From Verrucomicrobiales bacterium (GTDB lineage: Bacteria; Verrucomicrobiota; Verrucomicrobiia; Limisphaerales; CANJXF01), in NCBI GenBank assembly GCA_947478865.1, contig CANJXF010000032.1:1-46996 (forward strand): 46,996 bases of DNA. The letters are read 5' to 3'. Below are positions 1,092-22,072 of the stretch, piece by piece. Each line of letters opens with the position of its first letter. Position 1 is the first letter of the stretch. The notes under the pieces are model-generated. The model worked only from the letters and a program-made list of their open reading frames with translations. It was not told the origin of the DNA and did not search any database. The position numbers and the translations under genes are program-made.

Positions 1092-2330
1092 ATGAAAATT
1101 TTAAGAATGGTTCTAAAGGTATGCCTGCTGACCTTGATGGCTTGGTCGCTGATTGGGTCGGCCACGCCTCTTCCAAGAATTAAATCTGGCGACCCGCTCG
1201 ATGCCAGTAACGTCTTGTGGGATTCCCCGAGTACAAACTCCTCCGGCTCAATGCCGCTGGGCAATGGCGACATCGGCCTGAACGCTTGGGTGGAAGAGAA
1301 GGCGTCGCGGGACAACCTGCAGTCCATCATCGACCAGATCCGCGCCTGGGCCGCCAAGCAAAACCAAGGCAAGGGCAAGAACGTCGAGATTGTCGTGCAG
1401 GCGATGAACAACTGCGTAAATGCACATGCCGATCAACGCCCGGAGCTGGGGCAATATTATCAGGGTTATCGCGAAGTGGCGAAGGCCAACAAGGGTGTGC
1501 TGTTCATTGATACCTATGGCAAGTGGCTCGAGCTTTACAACAGCCAGCCGGATCACGCGACGTGGATCAGTAATGTTCCTGACGGCCTCCACCCCAATGC
1601 CGAAGACGCGAAGGCGATCATTGTGCCGTCGGTGCGACAGGCGCTGCAACGCCAAGTGCCGGGAACAGAAGCTGTTGAAATGCCGGTGTTCAAGGAGAAT
1701 GCGAGGATACTATTCCAGGGTGACTCGATCACCGACGGGGAACGCAATCGTAATGACTGTCCGCACCTGCTTCTCGGGCAAGGCTACCAGTTCATCGTTG
1801 CAGCCAAATTCAGTGCGCTGTATCCGGAAAGAAGGGTGACGTTCATCAACCGCGCCGTCAGCGGGAACAACGTCAAGACCATGGCGGCCCGCTGGCGGAC
1901 CGACACGCTCGACCTAAAGCCGGACCTGCTGAGCATTTTGATTGGTATCAACGACAGCGGGATTGGCGGCGGGGACGAAAGGAAAGTGCCGTTAGATCAA
2001 TATGAGAAGGTCTATGACAATCTTCTCGCTGATGCCAGGGCGGCCAATCCGAACCTCTGCCTTGTTCTTGGGGAGCCATTCTATCTGCCCAAGGAGGGGC
2101 ACAAGGAAGGAAGCGAGCGGGAACGGGATGTCAGGCAGCGGCAGGCGATTGTCGCTAGACTAGCCACCAAGTATCAGGCCGCGTTGGTGAAGTATCAGAA
2201 GGTCTTTGATGACGCCTGCAAGCGTGCGCCCGCACAGTTCTGGGCTGCGGATGGGGTTCATCCCACGTATTCCGGTCACCAACTCATGGCGGATGAGTGG
2301 GTGAGGACGGTGACACAATTCTATCAGTGA
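1092..2330 (+). CDS. SGNH/GDSL esterase with chimeric GH95-like N-terminus
   Basis: The 412-residue exported protein has three parts. Residues 1-69 are a signal peptide plus the start of a DUF5703/GH95-like hydrolase; residues 34-69 match residues 35-70 of the next gene at 32 of 36 positions. Residues about 70-190 look like the C-terminal half of an SGNH hydrolase, ending in the Asp164/His167 block DGLHPN but lacking its Ser block. Residues about 200-412 are a complete SGNH domain, with GDSITDG (Ser212), an IGIND block and DGVHPTYSGHQ near the end. The last domain should be an active esterase, probably a glycan deacetylase. The frame is open upstream to 918, but ATG 1092 best precedes the signal peptide. 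The next gene starts 10 bp after the stop. Confidence 0.75.
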   Translation: MKILRMVLKVCLLTLMAWSLIGSATPLPRIKSGDPLDASNVLWDSPSTNSSGSMPLGNGDIGLNAWVEEKASRDNLQSIIDQIRAWAAKQNQGKGKNVEIVVQAMNNCVNAHADQRPELGQYYQGYREVAKANKGVLFIDTYGKWLELYNSQPDHATWISNVPDGLHPNAEDAKAIIVPSVRQALQRQVPGTEAVEMPVFKENARILFQGDSITDGERNRNDCPHLLLGQGYQFIVAAKFSALYPERRVTFINRAVSGNNVKTMAARWRTDTLDLKPDLLSILIGINDSGIGGGDERKVPLDQYEKVYDNLLADARAANPNLCLVLGEPFYLPKEGHKEGSERERDVRQRQAIVARLATKYQAALVKYQKVFDDACKRAPAQFWAADGVHPTYSGHQLMADEWVRTVTQFYQ

Positions 2331-2340
2331 AAATCAAAAT

Positions 2341-4794
2341 ATGAACAAATTATCAATCGTGATTGCCAAGGCAGCCGTGCTGATTTTGATCGCGTGCCAG
2401 AATGTTAGGGCGGCGACCCCTGGCCCGGAATCGAAACCTGGCAACCCGCTGGACGCCTGCAACGTGGTGTGGGACAGCCCGAGCACAAATTCGTCCGGTT
2501 CAATGCCACTGGGCAATGGCGATATCGGACTGAACGTGTGGGTGGAGGAGAACGGCGAGTTGGTGTTTTTCATTTCCAAGACTGATGCGATTACGGATTG
2601 CGGACGATTGGTCAAGTTGGGGCAAGTGCGGTTGCGGCTGACCCCGTCGCTGGCAACTCGACCATTCCGTCAGGAATTGCAACTGCGACAGGGACAGCTC
2701 GTCATCCGCAGCGGCCCCGAGAGTTCAGCCACCACGCTGCGTGTTTGGGTGGACGCCAATCGCCCAGTAATCCACATCGAAGGTGATTCGCAAAAGGACG
2801 TGCAGGCCGAAGTCAGCCTGAAGATATGGCGAACGGCGGATCGCGATTTGCAGCAGGACATGAGCGCCTTGGGCGTCTGTCGTGGCGGCGTACCGATCAT
2901 TGAAAAAGCCGACGTGGTGCTTCCGATTAAGCACAATCACATCGTCTGGTATCACCGCAACGAACTGACGATCTATCCCTTGACCATGAAGGCGCAGGGA
3001 TTAGAGAGCCTGATGAAAATGGTGCCGGATCCGATCCTGCATCGCACTTTCGGCGGCTGCATCAGCGGCAGCGGTTTGGTTCAGACCGAGGCGGTTGGCG
3101 AAGCGACGCAAATTTTGAAAACTGCGGCGCCAACTCGACACCTCGATGTTTCCATTCATGTGCTAACGGCACAAACAGACACTGCGGACCAGTGGCTGGA
3201 AAAGTTGAATGACATTGTAGCAGAGGGGAGCAAGGCGGGATTGGCCAAGACCTGGAAAGCGCATTGCCGGTGGTGGGAGGACTTCTGGAATCGCAGTTGG
3301 GTTTATGTGCGGACACCGGAAGACGCCGCGCCGGCCACGGTTGAGCAGCTGTCTGAACGACGCCGTGCGCGCGAGGATTTGCAGTTGATCGGGAAGAACG
3401 GACTGCACGGTCCGACCCACGTGTTACCCGCCGTCAGCGTTGAGCCCGCCGGCCCAGTGGTGACCCGCGGTTACGCGCTGCAACGGTTCGTCATTGCAGC
3501 CGGTGGCCGGGGAGCTTACCCGATCAAGTGGGACGGATCCATTTTTACGGTTAACTCAAGGAAGCCCGATAGCTTGCCCGATGCGGATCACCGCAACAAT
3601 GGTGGCCCGCTCTACTGGTTTCTGGATACGGTCACGACGACCTATGGGCCGACGCTCCGCAGCGGCGACTACGATCTCATGCGACCAGTATTCGCGATGT
3701 ATCGCGCAATGTTGCCGATGGCCAGGGAACGGACGAAGATTTACTATCAGCACGAAGGTGTTTTCATTCCCGCGACCCTCTATCCTTGGGGGACCTATGC
3801 GAATGATGATTACAGTTCGGCCAAGGGGTGGAACCAAGGCGATCGTCCGCTAGGCCTCCTCGAAAATATTTACGTCCGCTGGCTGTGGCAGGGCGGAGTC
3901 GAGCTTGCCTCGGTGATGCTCGACTACTATGAAGCCACACAGGATGAAAAATTTCTGCGCGACACTTTGCTTCCGATCGCGGACGGTGTAGCCACCTTCT
4001 ATGACCAACATTACAAGCGCGATGAACATGGCAAGATTCGGATCGATCCGGCGTGCGCATTGGAATCTTGCCATAATGTGGTGAACCCGCTCCCGGAGAT
4101 TGCCGGACTCAGATACGTTCTGCCGCGACTGCTGGCTTTGCCGCACACGAAAACTACTGCCGCCCAGCGCGCCGCCTGGAGGAAAACGCGCGCCGACTTG
4201 CCCGAGGTGCCGATGAACGGCAAGGCGGGCGAGAAAGTTCTCATTGCTGCGGAGGTCATCAAGGACCGTCAGGGTGATGAGCTGCCGGAACTCTACGCGG
4301 TTTTTCCCTACCGGCTCTATGCGTTGGGATGCCCGGAGTTTGAGATTGGGCGCCGCAGCGTTGAGCTTTACTCGCCGGAAAAGCCTCGCAGCGTTTATCC
4401 GTTTGAGGGAAGGGTGGGGGGCTGGCGGCTTAATCCCATCCAAGTGGCATACGTGGGCAAAGCCGAACAGGCGGCGCGGATGGTCACGTCAAATTTCGCG
4501 GCGCACGATCCTGGCAGCCGATTCCCGGCCTTCTGGGGCCCCAACCAAGTTGGGCTGCCAGACCAAAGCCACGGCGGAGTTTCGATGGCCGCCCTGCAGG
4601 CGATGCTCTTGCAGGTGGATGGTAAGAAGCTCTACCTGTTCCCAGCTTGGCTGAAGAAATGGGATGTGAACTTCAAACTCCATGCTCCTTACAACACCAC
4701 CGTGGAAGGGGAGCTGCGTGCTGGCAAAGTGGTTTCACTCAGGGTGACGCCAAAGTCCCGCACTGCCGATCTGGTCAACCTGCTGGCGAATTGA
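2341..4794 (+). CDS. exported GH95-like / DUF5703-type glycoside hydrolase
   Basis: This 817-residue protein has a signal peptide (about residues 1-25), then an N-terminal beta-rich domain with the block SSGSMPLGNGDIGLNVW, as in DUF5703 and GH95-like proteins. A long helical (alpha/alpha)6-type region follows, containing DHRNNGGPLYWFLDT near residue 418 and aromatic-rich segments such as YQHEGVFIPATLYPWG. GH95 enzymes are inverting alpha-L-fucosidases or galactosidases. This protein is a distant relative, so the exact sugar cannot be read from sequence. It lies in a run of glycosidases, and its first 70 codons are duplicated in the preceding chimeric esterase gene. The short 10-bp gap to that gene suggests cotranscription. 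Confidence 0.75.
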   Translation: MNKLSIVIAKAAVLILIACQNVRAATPGPESKPGNPLDACNVVWDSPSTNSSGSMPLGNGDIGLNVWVEENGELVFFISKTDAITDCGRLVKLGQVRLRLTPSLATRPFRQELQLRQGQLVIRSGPESSATTLRVWVDANRPVIHIEGDSQKDVQAEVSLKIWRTADRDLQQDMSALGVCRGGVPIIEKADVVLPIKHNHIVWYHRNELTIYPLTMKAQGLESLMKMVPDPILHRTFGGCISGSGLVQTEAVGEATQILKTAAPTRHLDVSIHVLTAQTDTADQWLEKLNDIVAEGSKAGLAKTWKAHCRWWEDFWNRSWVYVRTPEDAAPATVEQLSERRRAREDLQLIGKNGLHGPTHVLPAVSVEPAGPVVTRGYALQRFVIAAGGRGAYPIKWDGSIFTVNSRKPDSLPDADHRNNGGPLYWFLDTVTTTYGPTLRSGDYDLMRPVFAMYRAMLPMARERTKIYYQHEGVFIPATLYPWGTYANDDYSSAKGWNQGDRPLGLLENIYVRWLWQGGVELASVMLDYYEATQDEKFLRDTLLPIADGVATFYDQHYKRDEHGKIRIDPACALESCHNVVNPLPEIAGLRYVLPRLLALPHTKTTAAQRAAWRKTRADLPEVPMNGKAGEKVLIAAEVIKDRQGDELPELYAVFPYRLYALGCPEFEIGRRSVELYSPEKPRSVYPFEGRVGGWRLNPIQVAYVGKAEQAARMVTSNFAAHDPGSRFPAFWGPNQVGLPDQSHGGVSMAALQAMLLQVDGKKLYLFPAWLKKWDVNFKLHAPYNTTVEGELRAGKVVSLRVTPKSRTADLVNLLAN

Positions 4795-4830: not shown

Positions 4831-7800
4831 ATGGTGATGAAATTCAAACTTATGAAGAACTTCTTGCTGGCTGGCTTGGCGCTGTGCTCGTTCGCTGGAA
4901 TGACTCGCGCGGAAACTAATCTGGCGACAGAATTCGTAACCCCACCCGATTCGGCGAAGCCGTGGGTGAACATGTGGTGGTTTGACAAGGTAACCCCGGC
5001 CAACATTACCCAACACCTTGAGGAACTGAAGACGAAGGGCGTGGGCGGTGTGATGCTGATTGATTTGGGCAACATGCCGGGCGCGCCGTACATGAGCGAT
5101 AATTGGCGGGAACTGTTTCGCCACGCGGTTCGGGAAGCGGATCGGGTGGGATTAAAACTGGGCGTGAACACCTGCCCGGGTTGGCCCTCGGGCGGGCCGT
5201 GGATCACGCCGGAGAATTCCAGCTGGATGATGGTTAGTTCCGAAACCGTCATCAAGGGACCGCAGAAGTTTTCCGGCCAGCTGGTGGAGCCAAATGGCAA
5301 GGGAGCGTTGTATGAAGATGTGGCGATTCAGGCTTTTCCAATCGCGGAAGACGCGGCCAAATCGCAACCTGTGATTGCCGTGAGTACCAACGCTGACGAG
5401 TTGCCGAATCTGCGCGACGGAAACTTCAACACCGCTTGGAAATCCGGCAGCGCCGATAGCCCGTGGATTCAGTTCGACTTCGGCCGGCCGCAATTGGTGG
5501 ATTGGGCTTGGATTGATCTGGTGGGACGGGTGGGCATTGAGGCCTCGGATGACGGCATCGCTTTCAAACCGGTGGTCACGTTGAATGGACCGCCACACAA
5601 CACTATTTACGAAGCCTTGCCTCCGACCACGGCGCGCTGGTTCCGCATCGTCGTGCCGAACAACGCCACCGTGCGCGACGTCGCGCTGGGCCCACGCATG
5701 GAGGTGGAGCGGTTTGCTCGCCTCGCGGCCAAGCGGGCGGGCACTCATCCCCTGGGTGTCACCGCAACGCGGCAGGCCGATCAAGTCAGTTTTGTGCGGG
5801 AAGAATTGCTGTCGCTGCCGAGCGACCGTCCGTTGCTCGTTCGTGAACGTATTGATTTGAGCAGCCGGGTTTCCGGGGATGGAACCCTGGAGTGGGACGT
5901 GCCGCCGGGGAATTGGAAGGTTGTCCGGATCGGTCGAACGACCACGGGCCTGAATGTCGCTTTCGGCAAAGGTCTATTGGTAGATTACCTCAGCCCCACG
6001 GCGATGGCGCAGCATTACGAGAAAGGCATCAAGCCGGTGGTCGGCGACGCGGGCAAGTTGGTGGGAAAGACCTTTGAGTATTCCATTGAGGACAATGTCG
6101 AGATCGACGGCATCTATTCTTGGACCCCGCGTATGCTCGAAGTATTTCAGAAGCGGCGGGGTTACGATCCGACTCCCTATCTGGCAACGCTCGCGGGGGA
6201 AGTCGTCGAGAACGTAAAAATTACGGATCGCTTCCTCGCGGATGTGCGGCGGACCATCGCCGATGGCGTGGCGGAGGATCACTACGGTCGCTGGGCTGAA
6301 TTGGCGCATGCCGATGGCCTTAAGGTGCGTGCTGAAGCTGGCGGGCAACACCATCCGCGATTGCTGTGCAACGACGGTTTGATGAATCAAGGTCGTATGG
6401 ATGTGCCGGTTGCGGAGTTTTGGGAACTCGAGCTGTGGAAGGAGAATCAGTGGGCCCCGGCGGATCATCACGCCATCACCACGCCAAGTTGGGATGAAAC
6501 CGCGCAGAATGTGAATGCAAAACAGACTGCGAGCGCCGGGCATCTTTATGGCAAACCCGTTATGGCTTCCGAAGCGTTCACCACCGGTGGTCGGCTACAG
6601 CATTGGAGTCAGTCGCCCAGCGGGCTGCTGCGCCACGCGAACACCGCGTTTTGCGAGGGCATCAATTCCCTGAGCATTCACGGCTCGGCGACATCTGGTC
6701 CCGAAGATGGCGTGCCAGGAAAATCCGTCTTCGGAGGAATGCATTTCAATCACAACATCACTTGGTGGAATCAGGGTGCCGCCGAATTCCTGCGCTACCT
6801 TTCGCGTTGCTCGCATTTGCTGAGGCAGGGGCATTTTGTTGCCGACGTGCTTTATTACAACGGCGATGAAGCGCCAAACTTTGTTCCGCCCAAGAACCTC
6901 GATCCCTCGCGCGGCTTCGGCTACGATTATGACGTCTGCAATACGGAGATTCTGCTCACGCGCCTCTCGGTCAAAGCGGGGCGGATTGTTCTGCCGGATG
7001 GAATGAGTTATCGGGTGCTGGTTTTGCCGGAGCGGCCGGTGCTGCCGTTGAGCGTGGCCAAAAGGATTCAAGAGTTGGTGTCCGCCGGCGCGACGGTGGT
7101 TGGCCCGAAGCCGCAACGCACGCCCGGACTGACCGGCTATCCCGGGAGCGAACAACAGCTCAGGATAATTGCAGACAAAGTGTGGGGAAAGAAAACGGAC
7201 GCGGCAACACAGCAACGTTCCTATGGCAAGGGGCGCGTTGTATCCGGCCTAAGCATTCGCGATGTCCTGAGGCAAGTCGCCGTTCCACCTGATTTCGCAT
7301 TCCAAAGCAAAGCAGAAAATGCGTCGTTTGATTTCATCCATCGCCGCACTGCGGACACAGATATCTACTTTGTCGTCAACCGGCGCGCTGCGGCACTGAA
7401 AGCCGATTTCACGTTCCGCGTCAGTGACAAGCAGCCGGAACTGTGGAATCCGGTGACTGGCGAACAACGCGATCTGCCCCATTTCGAGTCGAAGAACGGC
7501 GTCGCGTCCTTACCCCTCGAGTTTGAGCCATACGGTTCGATGTTTGTCGTCTTCCGAAAGAGCCTTCCTCACCCATCAGCAGCAAACCAGAATAGGACGG
7601 AAGAAAATTTTCCGAAGTTGCGTCAAATGCTGGAGGTTGCGGGACCCTGGACGGTGCAGTTCGATCCGCAGTGGTTTTATCCAACCAACGGTCTCGGCAG
7701 CGACCAGACCCAGGGATCGATGGTCTTTGAAAAACTTGAGGACTGGAACAAACGCTCGGAACCCGCGGTAAAATATTTCAGCGGCACGGCGGTTTATAAA

Positions 7801-8133
7801 CATACCTTCAATCTACTTCCGACGATTTCGGGGCAGCGCTTGTATCTCGATTTGGGCACAGTGAAAGAAACAGCCCGAGTGCGGCTCAATGGAAAAGACC
7901 TTGGGGTGGTATGGTGCGCTCCTTGGCGCGTGGATATTACCGGAATCGCCAAGCTTGTTGATAACACGGTTGAAATCGAGGTTGTTAATCTATGGCCCAA
8001 TCGGTTGATGGGAGACAAGAAGCTGCCAGTCCCGCAGCGCCGGACACGGACGCGAATGTTTATGGGAGGCCTCAACAACGACCAGTTAGCCTCTGGCCTC
8101 CTGGGGCCAGTGACGATTCAGGCAGTTCAGTGA
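4831..8133 (+). CDS. exported GH106-like alpha-L-rhamnosidase
   Basis: The 1100-residue product begins with a signal peptide (MKNFLLAGLALCSFAGMTRA after a few extra residues). It continues with the GH106-type opening PWVNMWWFDKVTPANITQHL and VGGVMLIDLG, then the CPGWPSGGPW block of the catalytic barrel. An inserted discoidin-like segment (DGNFNTAW at about 196, then WIQFDFG) and a C-terminal beta-sandwich from about residue 935 resemble the accessory domains of this family. GH106 enzymes remove terminal alpha-L-rhamnose from pectic and other plant glycans. ATG 4831, 4837 and 4852 are all possible starts; none has a clear ribosome-binding site. It lies 36 bp after the GH95-like gene and is probably in the same transcript. 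Confidence 0.85.
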   Translation: MVMKFKLMKNFLLAGLALCSFAGMTRAETNLATEFVTPPDSAKPWVNMWWFDKVTPANITQHLEELKTKGVGGVMLIDLGNMPGAPYMSDNWRELFRHAVREADRVGLKLGVNTCPGWPSGGPWITPENSSWMMVSSETVIKGPQKFSGQLVEPNGKGALYEDVAIQAFPIAEDAAKSQPVIAVSTNADELPNLRDGNFNTAWKSGSADSPWIQFDFGRPQLVDWAWIDLVGRVGIEASDDGIAFKPVVTLNGPPHNTIYEALPPTTARWFRIVVPNNATVRDVALGPRMEVERFARLAAKRAGTHPLGVTATRQADQVSFVREELLSLPSDRPLLVRERIDLSSRVSGDGTLEWDVPPGNWKVVRIGRTTTGLNVAFGKGLLVDYLSPTAMAQHYEKGIKPVVGDAGKLVGKTFEYSIEDNVEIDGIYSWTPRMLEVFQKRRGYDPTPYLATLAGEVVENVKITDRFLADVRRTIADGVAEDHYGRWAELAHADGLKVRAEAGGQHHPRLLCNDGLMNQGRMDVPVAEFWELELWKENQWAPADHHAITTPSWDETAQNVNAKQTASAGHLYGKPVMASEAFTTGGRLQHWSQSPSGLLRHANTAFCEGINSLSIHGSATSGPEDGVPGKSVFGGMHFNHNITWWNQGAAEFLRYLSRCSHLLRQGHFVADVLYYNGDEAPNFVPPKNLDPSRGFGYDYDVCNTEILLTRLSVKAGRIVLPDGMSYRVLVLPERPVLPLSVAKRIQELVSAGATVVGPKPQRTPGLTGYPGSEQQLRIIADKVWGKKTDAATQQRSYGKGRVVSGLSIRDVLRQVAVPPDFAFQSKAENASFDFIHRRTADTDIYFVVNRRAAALKADFTFRVSDKQPELWNPVTGEQRDLPHFESKNGVASLPLEFEPYGSMFVVFRKSLPHPSAANQNRTEENFPKLRQMLEVAGPWTVQFDPQWFYPTNGLGSDQTQGSMVFEKLEDWNKRSEPAVKYFSGTAVYKHTFNLLPTISGQRLYLDLGTVKETARVRLNGKDLGVVWCAPWRVDITGIAKLVDNTVEIEVVNLWPNRLMGDKKLPVPQRRTRTRMFMGGLNNDQLASGLLGPVTIQAVQ

Positions 8134-9862: not shown

Positions 9863-12700
9863 ATGGCGAGAGCGCTCATTAATTCAGCCGTGGTATTCCA
9901 GCCAATGATTCGAGCACTTGCCTTAACGGCATTGCTGCTCCAGTGCGCAATTTGCCCTGCCCGCGAGAGTGGCAACGACATCGTTATCGGCAATCGCCAC
10001 CTGGAGCTTCGGTTCACCCGAACGGGCGACCAGTTGCTGGCGACCGCATTGGTGAATCGCTCTGAAAATCGCACCATTAAACTGTCTGACGATGACTTTG
10101 CGTTGGCCATCGATGGTCACCCCAGTTTGCACGTGGACGACTTTTTCGTGCAGCAAGTAACCAAAGAGAGAATCGCGAATGGCCAACAGTTGACCATTGA
10201 GTTAGCTCAACGTAATGGGGTATCGAAAGTGGCGCTGGTTTACGAGTTGCTTGATGAAAATTTTTTCCTGCACCGACATCTGGAGTTTTCTCCAGAATCT
10301 CCTTTGGCTTTGCGGCAGGTCGATGTTTGGAGGGTTGGGCTGACGGGGAAGTGCTCGGCCCAGGAAAGCGGACCGCCGGAATATATGAGGGAGAATGTGT
10401 GGGGCGTGGATGGAAAGAAAGGTTTCGGCCAGCCGGTGTTTCTGGACAACACTTTCTGGGGATTGGAATTCCCGGTTGGATATAATCATTATGATGGGGG
10501 AAAAATGACGCTGTCACATTTTCCTGGCCGTTCTGTGGCTGGGCGGTTTGTTAGCAAAACTGCTGTGATGGGAGTTTCGCCTCTGGGTCAGGTAGCCTCG
10601 CGTTTTCGTTCCTACATTGAGCAGGGCCGAAATCGTTTCCCAGAACCGCGGGTTCAGGTAGACTACAATACTTGGACAACCGTGTCGCCAGCAACGGAAT
10701 CGAACAGCCTTGATCTCGTTAGTCAATTCAGGAAGAACCTGTTTGAACCTTACGGCGTGACCTTCGACAGCTTCACTCTGGACGACGGTTGGGATGAGAA
10801 GAATAGTCTTTGGGAGTTGCGTGCCAGCGGATTCCCTAGGGGATTTAAAACTCTACGCGATGCGCTCCAACCTATGGGAACAAAATTGGGGCTTTGGCTC
10901 TCGCCCTCAAGCGGCTATGAGCACGGTAGCTGGGGTGGTAAAAACGGCTATACTCAAAACGCCACATTCAATTGGTTTCTTTGCCAGAGCGATCCTAATT
11001 ACCGCCGCGATATGTGTCGCATCGTGCCCGAATTAATTCGAAAAAATGATGTCGGTTTTTTCAAGATGGACGGTTTTTGCGCGAGTTGTGATACCAATCA
11101 GCATCCGCACCATCTTGATGGCGACTATGCGCGCGAAGCTAACGTGGACGCATTCATCGAGTTGACCATCGCAATGCGGCAGGCGAAGCCAGGCGTATAT
11201 CTCGATCCGACCAGCGGGATGTGGGCCAGTCCTTGGTGGTTATGGTATGTCGATTCGGTCTGGTGCGATACCTACGACGGCACGGCGCCAGCCATTGTTC
11301 CATCGTTGAATGGACTTGATGGTGCCACGACCAGTCGCGATGCGCTTCTGATGCGGAGGATGTTGCAAAATCCCGGGTTCGATCCAGCCGCCTTCGAGAC
11401 GCTTGGCGTATATCTTGACCCGACTCTCGCAATTGAGCCGCAAACCTTCTTTGAAAACTGGCAGGATAACGCGATGATGGTGGCTGGTCGAGGTAGCCGT
11501 CTTCTGACATTTTATATGAATCCTGCCCAGTTTCCTCATCCATCGAAGGACTGGGCATTTCTCGCTGACCTGATTAAGTGGACCAGGCACAATGCTTCGA
11601 CGCTTGCCCGCACGGAGCCTATCCTGGGCGACCCATACCAGATGGAGCCCTACGGCTATGCTCACTTTGCGGGGCGGCGCGGAATTCTAGCTCTGCGGAA
11701 TCCATTCATTCAACCCCAGAGGGTGCGGCTGAAGCTGGACACATCGAATGGATGGATGGCGAACGAAGCCGGGAAGGGAACCTATTCCGCCAGAATAGTC
11801 TTTCCTTACCAGGAGGCGCTTCCGCAGGTGCTGCGCTACGGCGATGCCCTCAAACTGGAACTGCAGCCGTATCAGACGGTCTTGGTGCAAATTGAGTCAA
11901 CAGATCAATTACCAGCCACCTTGACCGGAGTGCGGGCGCGCGAGATCAGTCGCTCGTCGAATAAAATTGCGTGGGAGGTGTTAGGTTTGCCAGGAACGAA
12001 AAGTGCCGCCTGGATTGCAGGGTTGCCAAATCCTACGAAGGTCTCATTGGAGGGGAAGATCGTCGCGGGCTCGAAGGAAGAGCAGGGCGCAGAGCTCTCG
12101 CTTACGTTCGACGGAAAGGCTGAGCGCTGTTCTGCAGAAGGTGGATCGCTCCAGCTTGATCGTTCATTGGATTCCGGGAGCAGACTGGCTGGCAAATGTA
12201 CTGCCAGCATCCCGTTAGGAACGAAGGCTTCGGTTTACGTGCTCTGTCGCGATCCGTCGCCAACCAATGCGCAATTTCAATGCCGTGCCACAGTCAATGG
12301 AAACGCTGTAGCGGTGGCGACCATCCGTAGTCCCATCGCAGAGAAAATTCCTCTTCGCACGCTCCATGAGTTGCCCTTGAAGCGTTGGGTCTTCTTCCGC
12401 TTTGAGATTCCTGAAGGCAAAAGTGAGGTTTCGGTCACAGTCGATGGCGCCAGTCAGGATGCAAAACCAGTTTCCGTTCAAGCGGGATGGTGGCTCTGGG
12501 TTGAACGTCCGCTAGAAAAAGCAATCGTTACGATGGACTTCAAGGAAGCCTTGCCGGCCCCTGTGCTCAATCCACTGCCATTCCCATCTGCGATGGAATT
12601 CCAGCGGAAGGTGATGACCCTCCAACCGCTCCAGACATTTGCGCCGGAGGGAAACAAAGCCTCGTTAGTGAGGGATTCGATTTCCAAGGTGCGTAAATAA
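9863..12700 (+). CDS. exported GH36-like alpha-galactosidase (clan GH-D)
   Basis: The 945-residue product has a signal peptide (MIRALALTALLLQCAIC begins at internal ATG 9905) and a beta-rich N-terminal domain to about 270. A clan GH-D-type barrel follows, with FDSFTLDDGWDE (Asp307/Asp308) and FFKMDGF, whose Asp403 sits where the GH36/GH27 nucleophile follows a K-x-D pattern. The C-terminal approximately 280 residues form extra beta domains, possibly carbohydrate-binding. A purine-rich stretch with AGGA at 9847-9850 favours ATG 9863. The enzyme probably cleaves terminal alpha-galactose or a related residue. Its motifs differ from classical GH36 (KMD instead of KWD, no tetramer-type N-terminus), so a sister family is possible. 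Confidence 0.75.
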   Translation: MARALINSAVVFQPMIRALALTALLLQCAICPARESGNDIVIGNRHLELRFTRTGDQLLATALVNRSENRTIKLSDDDFALAIDGHPSLHVDDFFVQQVTKERIANGQQLTIELAQRNGVSKVALVYELLDENFFLHRHLEFSPESPLALRQVDVWRVGLTGKCSAQESGPPEYMRENVWGVDGKKGFGQPVFLDNTFWGLEFPVGYNHYDGGKMTLSHFPGRSVAGRFVSKTAVMGVSPLGQVASRFRSYIEQGRNRFPEPRVQVDYNTWTTVSPATESNSLDLVSQFRKNLFEPYGVTFDSFTLDDGWDEKNSLWELRASGFPRGFKTLRDALQPMGTKLGLWLSPSSGYEHGSWGGKNGYTQNATFNWFLCQSDPNYRRDMCRIVPELIRKNDVGFFKMDGFCASCDTNQHPHHLDGDYAREANVDAFIELTIAMRQAKPGVYLDPTSGMWASPWWLWYVDSVWCDTYDGTAPAIVPSLNGLDGATTSRDALLMRRMLQNPGFDPAAFETLGVYLDPTLAIEPQTFFENWQDNAMMVAGRGSRLLTFYMNPAQFPHPSKDWAFLADLIKWTRHNASTLARTEPILGDPYQMEPYGYAHFAGRRGILALRNPFIQPQRVRLKLDTSNGWMANEAGKGTYSARIVFPYQEALPQVLRYGDALKLELQPYQTVLVQIESTDQLPATLTGVRAREISRSSNKIAWEVLGLPGTKSAAWIAGLPNPTKVSLEGKIVAGSKEEQGAELSLTFDGKAERCSAEGGSLQLDRSLDSGSRLAGKCTASIPLGTKASVYVLCRDPSPTNAQFQCRATVNGNAVAVATIRSPIAEKIPLRTLHELPLKRWVFFRFEIPEGKSEVSVTVDGASQDAKPVSVQAGWWLWVERPLEKAIVTMDFKEALPAPVLNPLPFPSAMEFQRKVMTLQPLQTFAPEGNKASLVRDSISKVRK

Positions 12701-21361: not shown

Positions 21362-22072
21362 ATGAAGCATTTGTTTCTATTCGCACTGCTGCTGACTTCG
21401 ACGGTTGCGGCGCGCGCTGCTGAACGGATATCCTCATTTACACCGGGTGCGCACATTTTATTTCAAGGTGACTCGATCACGGATGGAAATCGAGGGCGCA
21501 ACTCGGACCCAAATCATATTCTCGGACACGGATACGTTTTCATCATCGCGGCACGGCATGGTGCGACATTCCCGGAGGCAAGGCTTGATTTCATCAACCG
21601 CGGTATCAGCGGCAACACCGTCCTTGATTTGGAGAAGCGTTGGCAAAACGACACGCTCGATTTAAAGCCAGATGTCCTCAGCATCCTTATTGGTGTGAAT
21701 GACAGAGGGAGAAAGGTTCCACTGGACGAGTATGCGCAAGTATACGACAAGCTCCTTGCCGAAACCCGGGCGGCGAATCCTAAGGTCAAGCTGGTGCTCT
21801 GCGAACCCTTCTTTCTGAACCACCTCGCCACCCTTCCGTCCGTCGGTTCGCCAGATGCAGACATTGTAAAAAGACAGGAAATCGTTTCCAAACTCGCCGC
21901 AAAATATGGTGCGGCTCTTGTTCATTTTCAAAAGGTTCTGGATGATGCGTGCCTGCGCGCCCCCGCCAGCCATTGGATCTGGGACGGCGTCCACCCAACC
22001 TATTCTGGACATCAACTCCTTGCGGATGAATGGGAGCGCGCGGTTCGTGAATTTCAGCCACCAACAAAATGA
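21362..22072 (+). CDS. exported SGNH/GDSL hydrolase (acetylesterase-type)
   Basis: The 236-residue protein has a short signal peptide (MKHLFLFALLLTSTVAARAA) and one complete SGNH domain. Block I is FQGDSITDG with nucleophile Ser38, then the Gly block NRGISGNT, the Asn block IGVND, and the Asp208/His211 pair in DGVHPTYSGHQ. It closely resembles the last domain of the chimeric esterase at 1092-2330, sharing DTLDLKPD, SILIG and the whole C-terminal block. Enzymes of this type remove acetyl groups from plant polysaccharides. The gene lies 20 bp after the esterase/hydrolase fusion, and its TGA overlaps the ATG of the next gene by four bases (ATGA), indicating translational coupling. Confidence 0.85.
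   Translation: MKHLFLFALLLTSTVAARAAERISSFTPGAHILFQGDSITDGNRGRNSDPNHILGHGYVFIIAARHGATFPEARLDFINRGISGNTVLDLEKRWQNDTLDLKPDVLSILIGVNDRGRKVPLDEYAQVYDKLLAETRAANPKVKLVLCEPFFLNHLATLPSVGSPDADIVKRQEIVSKLAAKYGAALVHFQKVLDDACLRAPASHWIWDGVHPTYSGHQLLADEWERAVREFQPPTK

Follow-up and report, generated by a model that had tools for sequence, protein, structure and literature searches.

A 412-residue open reading frame at positions 1092-2330 (forward strand) of the window, by which we mean the whole 46,996-nucleotide stretch of Verrucomicrobiales DNA analysed here, is confirmed as a real three-part fusion of a glycosidase leader with SGNH hydrolase sequence. Residues 1-70 correspond to the start of a DUF5703/GH95-like protein, residues 71-195 to the C-terminal half of a first SGNH domain (A), and residues 196-412 to an intact second SGNH domain (B). 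The gene itself is probably young and made by recombination. Our preferred account of its origin, to which we give a probability of a little under one half, is that a block from a relative resembling locus L010 recombined into the native GH95-like gene, giving a chimera that most likely still works via domain B. The fusion has been caught at a stage when both parents still have recognisable relatives and the unfused neighbours can still be seen, and it illustrates in concrete terms how a gene deprived of its start can come by a promoter and an export signal again. The source genome is a single draft MAG of 114 contigs, and its family consists of this one genome.

Structure of the fusion gene

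The reading frame is open back to position 918, and the start at 1092 was assigned by homology. Pfam places DUF5703_N at residues 43-70 and finds two Lipase_GDSL_2 stretches, the best of them at 210-398. The DUF5703_N match scores 43.2 bits against a cut-off of 26.7 and spans profile positions 2-29; since just these of the 287 positions are present and the GH95 catalytic domain is absent, the fusion is not itself a member of the GH95-like/DUF5703 family.

The leader (1092-1298, forward strand) comprises a putative signal peptide and the first 69 or so codons of a GH95-like (DUF5703) gene, as identified by Pfam, by identity to the downstream gene and by a tree of short sequences. An initial annotation had matched it to the start of the neighbouring GH95-like gene; this holds for residues 34-69, where the count given, 32 of 36 identical, is exact (88.9%), and not for residues 1-33, the putative signal-peptide part, which are only 36% identical. 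The whole-genome search pairs leader and downstream gene with E = 5.7e-24. Aligned as DNA, the two are 82% identical over 124 nt (E = 1e-27) and 81.5% identical over codons 34-69, so that 18.5% of the nucleotides differ there. A tree of 108 nt groups the leader weakly with its own GH95 gene (UFBoot 50, SH-like 0.865) and gives the leader a branch about three times longer. Codons 46-69 of the leader have a pS of 0.51 (9 of 17.7 synonymous sites) and a pN of 0.02 to the genome's own GH95 gene, and are about equally far from it and from the GH95 genes of other species.

The N-terminal sequence MKILRMVLKVCLLTLMAWSLIGSA looks like a signal peptide by eye, and AlphaFold predicts a helix at residues 2-19. 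Predicted confidence is very low for residues 18-73 (pLDDT < 50), as would be expected of a disordered linker. The leader probably serves expression and export alone. The region upstream of 1092 has no match to any SGNH or GH95 upstream region; a 30-bp match on another contig of the genome (C47) lies within an unrelated gene and was taken as chance.

The junction falls somewhere within 1290-1302 (forward strand), where alignments to GH95-like and SGNH A sequences share at most a few bases. Similarity to intact proteins with both SGNH domains begins at residue 71 (codon at 1302), in agreement with the earlier placement of an in-frame switch at about 1299 to the C-terminal half of an SGNH hydrolase.

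The two SGNH domains

Domain A is represented by its C-terminal half (1302-1676, forward strand), which is 58.4% identical to the counterpart in locus L011. In a 19-sequence alignment with 18 domain A homologues, the half-domain keeps the Asp/His motif DGLHPN, and the nucleophile motif GTSLT and the Asn block are absent. Domain B (1677-2330 with the stop codon, forward strand) is a complete SGNH/GDSL hydrolase, as had been proposed: the motifs GDSIT, NRAVSGN, GIND and DGVHP are all there in order, the Pfam match is strong (PF13472, E = 6e-34), and the key residues are invariant in 49 sequences. Identity of the fusion to L010 is 82.4% over residues 71-195 and 87.6% over residues 196-412.

AlphaFold gives domain B a pLDDT mostly above 90 and much of the A-half a pLDDT below 60; only three sequences covered the A-half, so these low values do not show it to be unfolded. 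Domain B is under purifying selection, with pairwise dN/dS of 0.09-0.19 (0.18 for the fusion against L010). The A-half has a dN/dS of 0.33 between the fusion and L010, much like the 0.35 between L010 and L011, and amino-acid changes number six on the window side and four on the other, no clear excess in the window. Thus the truncation is a recent one, or else what remains of domain A is still of slight importance.

Among proteins of known structure, domain B resembles SGNH/GDSL enzymes of the acetyl xylan esterase type (PDB 3w7v/4jhl, 4q9a and LAE5 5jd3), which match residues ~200-407 with E down to 4e-31 and with all of the catalytic motifs present; unlike them, the fusion has about 200 extra N-terminal residues, made up of the GH95 leader and the half SGNH domain. 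Residues 39-70 match the start of the chains of DUF5703-containing GH95-like proteins (PDB 9hyq, 9hmb), of which the fusion carries the first ~70 residues alone, without the DUF5703 body or the catalytic domain.

Relatives and distribution

Relatives of the fusion were found by a scan of GTDB r220 contigs. Intact genes encoding both SGNH domains occur in loci L010 (Pedos-510; 4835-6259, 474 aa) and L011 (Umea1_bin-1099; 5602-7041, 479 aa). Both end 10 bp before a GH95-like gene, as in the window, and a GH106 gene follows. Over residues 71-412 the fusion is collinear with both (82-88% identity for L010), whereas upstream of residue 71 they have their own signal peptide and a complete domain A in place of the GH95 leader. 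The 5' half of the SGNH gene has thus been lost in the window, and no copy of the lost half lies elsewhere in the source genome. The undeleted arrangement expected by the initial annotation, a GH95-like gene ahead of a full SGNH gene, was found in part: the full SGNH gene is there in L010 and L011, but no genome examined has the order GH95-SGNH-GH95.

Domain A has been lost in four different ways in four further genomes, with different breakpoints, and so looks dispensable; domain B is nearly always kept. In L012 (1947-2999) the core of domain A is missing, and in L013 (1888-3162) its second half; in L014 (1557-2357) all of it is gone and a new leader stands instead. The frame is open in all three, in the same operon. 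In L080 (1873-2451) domain A is gone together with the middle of domain B, and the nucleophile Ser is changed (GDS to GDP), again in an open frame of the same operon. Elsewhere in the order, relatives of domain B are mostly of single-domain length. The repeated loss shows one domain being discarded and the other retained.

A GH95 leader in front of an SGNH domain was seen nowhere else among 75 GTDB hits, 320 genomes of the order and 387 of the phylum, and a search with the leader alone in 313 genomes of the order returned no other such fusion. An old, stable three-part family spread over many genomes, a finding that would have spoken against a recent fusion, did not appear among the genomes searched. 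A literature search found no mention of DUF5703, nor any account of a fusion of this kind in Verrucomicrobia.

Divergence along the operon

Synonymous divergence between the window and L010 changes abruptly within the downstream GH95-like gene. It is low over the A-half (pS 0.25), domain B (0.27) and the first ~45 codons of the GH95-like gene (2341-2475, forward strand; 0.20), and high over GH95 codons 46-90 (0.60), codons 91-817 (0.63) and the GH106 gene (0.61). The body of the GH95-like gene (2476-4794, forward strand) contains DUF5703_N and the GH95 catalytic domain by Pfam. The contrast between the low block (0.20-0.27) and the GH95 body (Fisher p ~9e-24) has the same direction in all pairs, with pS in the body close to saturation and few cassettes behind the statistics. 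The step implies that the block of SGNH gene plus GH95 leader has a history different from that of the GH95 body, the two meeting near GH95 codon 45, and indicates that the block is the younger; it suggests that the driving force was recombination within a polysaccharide-use operon.

Slow synonymous evolution of domain B is disfavoured as the cause of the step, because the A-half is also low against L010 (0.25, compared with 0.51 between L010 and L011; p 0.001) and the first 45 GH95 codons share the low pS. Imported and native parts are not told apart by their codon composition (GC3 64-73%), and among 384 genomes of the class no GH95 body is nearer than 37%.

Exchange at the same place can be seen between L010 and L191, loci from two genomes of one genus that are ~94% identical before and after a differing stretch. 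L191 has no gene for domains A and B before its GH95 gene and an unrelated GH95 leader, and homology with L010 resumes at GH95 codon 40. What was exchanged extends from the 3' end of a GH29 gene to that codon, with a clean replacement at both sides. This contrast marks the 5' end of the GH95 gene as a site of exchange for leaders and SGNH genes. Since L010 itself has a border at codon 40, the step between the window and L010 shows that an exchange took place, and fixes the right border in the window only as codon ~45 or later. Over a wider range (L010 1-12524 against G073:C44:1500-10000 for L191), the two loci differ in the presence of GH2, of the two-domain SGNH gene with its GH95 leader and of GH106, all within one polysaccharide-use cluster.

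Origin of the fusion

The order of events that we infer would begin with a donor block, from an L010-like relative, that held the two-domain SGNH gene and the start of the following GH95-like gene. This block would have recombined into the recipient's own GH95-like gene, its right end joining by homology inside the conserved 5' part of GH95, at about codon 45 or beyond, and its left end joining without real homology at 1290-1302. This would have left the 5' end of the native GH95 gene, with its promoter, start, signal peptide and 69 codons, standing in frame ahead of the C-terminal half of domain A, so that the leader would be the native start of the genome's own GH95 gene. We prefer this account as the most economical, because a single insertion explains the leader, the junction and the pS step together; the genome search finds one GH95-like gene alone in the source genome. 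Several points count against it. Were the genome's own GH95 gene native from codon ~46 onwards, codons 46-69 of the leader would be expected to be a recent copy of it, and their pS of 0.51 is higher than that predicts (against ~0.25 for the block, binomial p ~0.02 on one short stretch). A right crossover beyond codon 69 would remove this difficulty, but codons 46-70 of the genome's own GH95 gene are not donor-like in comparison with L012-L014 and L080. The left junction without homology is also a rare kind of event, no available genome shows the locus as it was before insertion, and the sequence upstream of 1092 matches nothing.

The same product could have come from a deletion. The initial annotation took as simplest the loss of a second GH95-like gene and the 5' half of an SGNH gene; the fusion, the lost SGNH 5' half and the GH95-like source of the leader all stand, and the vanished second gene as the simplest reading does not. 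Here that gene would have lain upstream of an intact two-domain SGNH gene, and the two would have been fused by a single deletion that began at its codon 69 and ended at SGNH codon ~132. We regard this as possible, though somewhat less likely than block insertion. The pS of 0.51 and pN of 0.02 in leader codons 46-69 are what a separate GH95 gene working until recently would be expected to show, and one other genome (G088) does hold many GH95-like paralogues. Nevertheless, no examined locus has the required gene order, the extra gene must later have vanished from a genome with one GH95-like gene, and the pS step at codon ~45 is left unexplained, so that recombination in the downstream gene is needed anyway. 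Tandem duplication would yield exactly this junction (GH95 codon 69 to SGNH codon ~132) in one step, after which the intact SGNH copy upstream would have had to disappear, and is in keeping with the weak sister grouping of the leader and the genome's own GH95 gene; we consider it very improbable, as the SGNH 3' end is not traced upstream of the leader and the nucleotide difference over codons 34-69 is too large for a young duplication. An assembly chimera of reads from two organisms, to which a draft in so many contigs is open, is improbable: the bases shared at the junction are too few for the kind of misjoin that assemblers commonly make, the reading frame is kept across it, the leader copies no sequence found, and the downstream 10-bp spacing and the operon are intact.

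Block insertion as we propose it has a counterpart in homology-facilitated illegitimate recombination, which has been tested in E. coli (PMC3240628) and proposed for the displacement of T6SS effector modules in Vibrio cholerae (PMC5361080). In that process, likewise, one end joins by homology and the other without, and a displaced remnant of the old gene is left; in the fusion, by contrast, the remnant is a 5' end that would have become the leader of the incoming gene, through a mechanism that is proposed here. The borders in the window, a pS step at GH95 codon ~45 on the right and almost no homology at 1290-1302 on the left, suggest by analogy that this process may apply here. A broader proposal, which we think rather unlikely, is that the SGNH gene and the first ~45 GH95 codons act as a cassette, exchanged again and again in many Verrucomicrobiota and entering GH95-like genes by way of a conserved 5' motif; its entry could strand the old 5' end and so capture a leader in one step, giving new exported fusions.

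Operon context and putative function

The GH106 alpha-L-rhamnosidase gene (4831-8133, forward strand; Pfam E = 2.7e-164) is the last of a conserved three-gene group and has the same position in L010, L011, L012 and L080. By Pfam, the gene for domain B is accompanied by GH95-like, GH106 and GH29 genes. The fusion would most likely have remained, by virtue of domain B, an active exported SGNH carbohydrate esterase. Because domain B is closest to acetyl-xylan-esterase-like SGNH proteins and has these neighbours, its likely role would be deacetylation of a rhamnose- or fucose-bearing polysaccharide.

Several other features of these loci may be recorded. Immediately 5' of the fusion is a pseudopilin-like gene (181-960; N_methyl and DUF1559). 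A 945-aa open frame with no Pfam match at E 1e-5 lies within the glycosidase cluster (9863-12700). A second, single-domain SGNH gene (21362-22072), ~59% identical to domain B, stands beside BD-FAE and Peptidase_S9 esterase-like genes. Short repeats that encode VAAVYDRRCPS / LIERRYNAPMRG-like peptides are present in L012 (3-200 and 5473-5750) where genes begin round the cassette, and they lengthen the predicted N-terminus of GH106.
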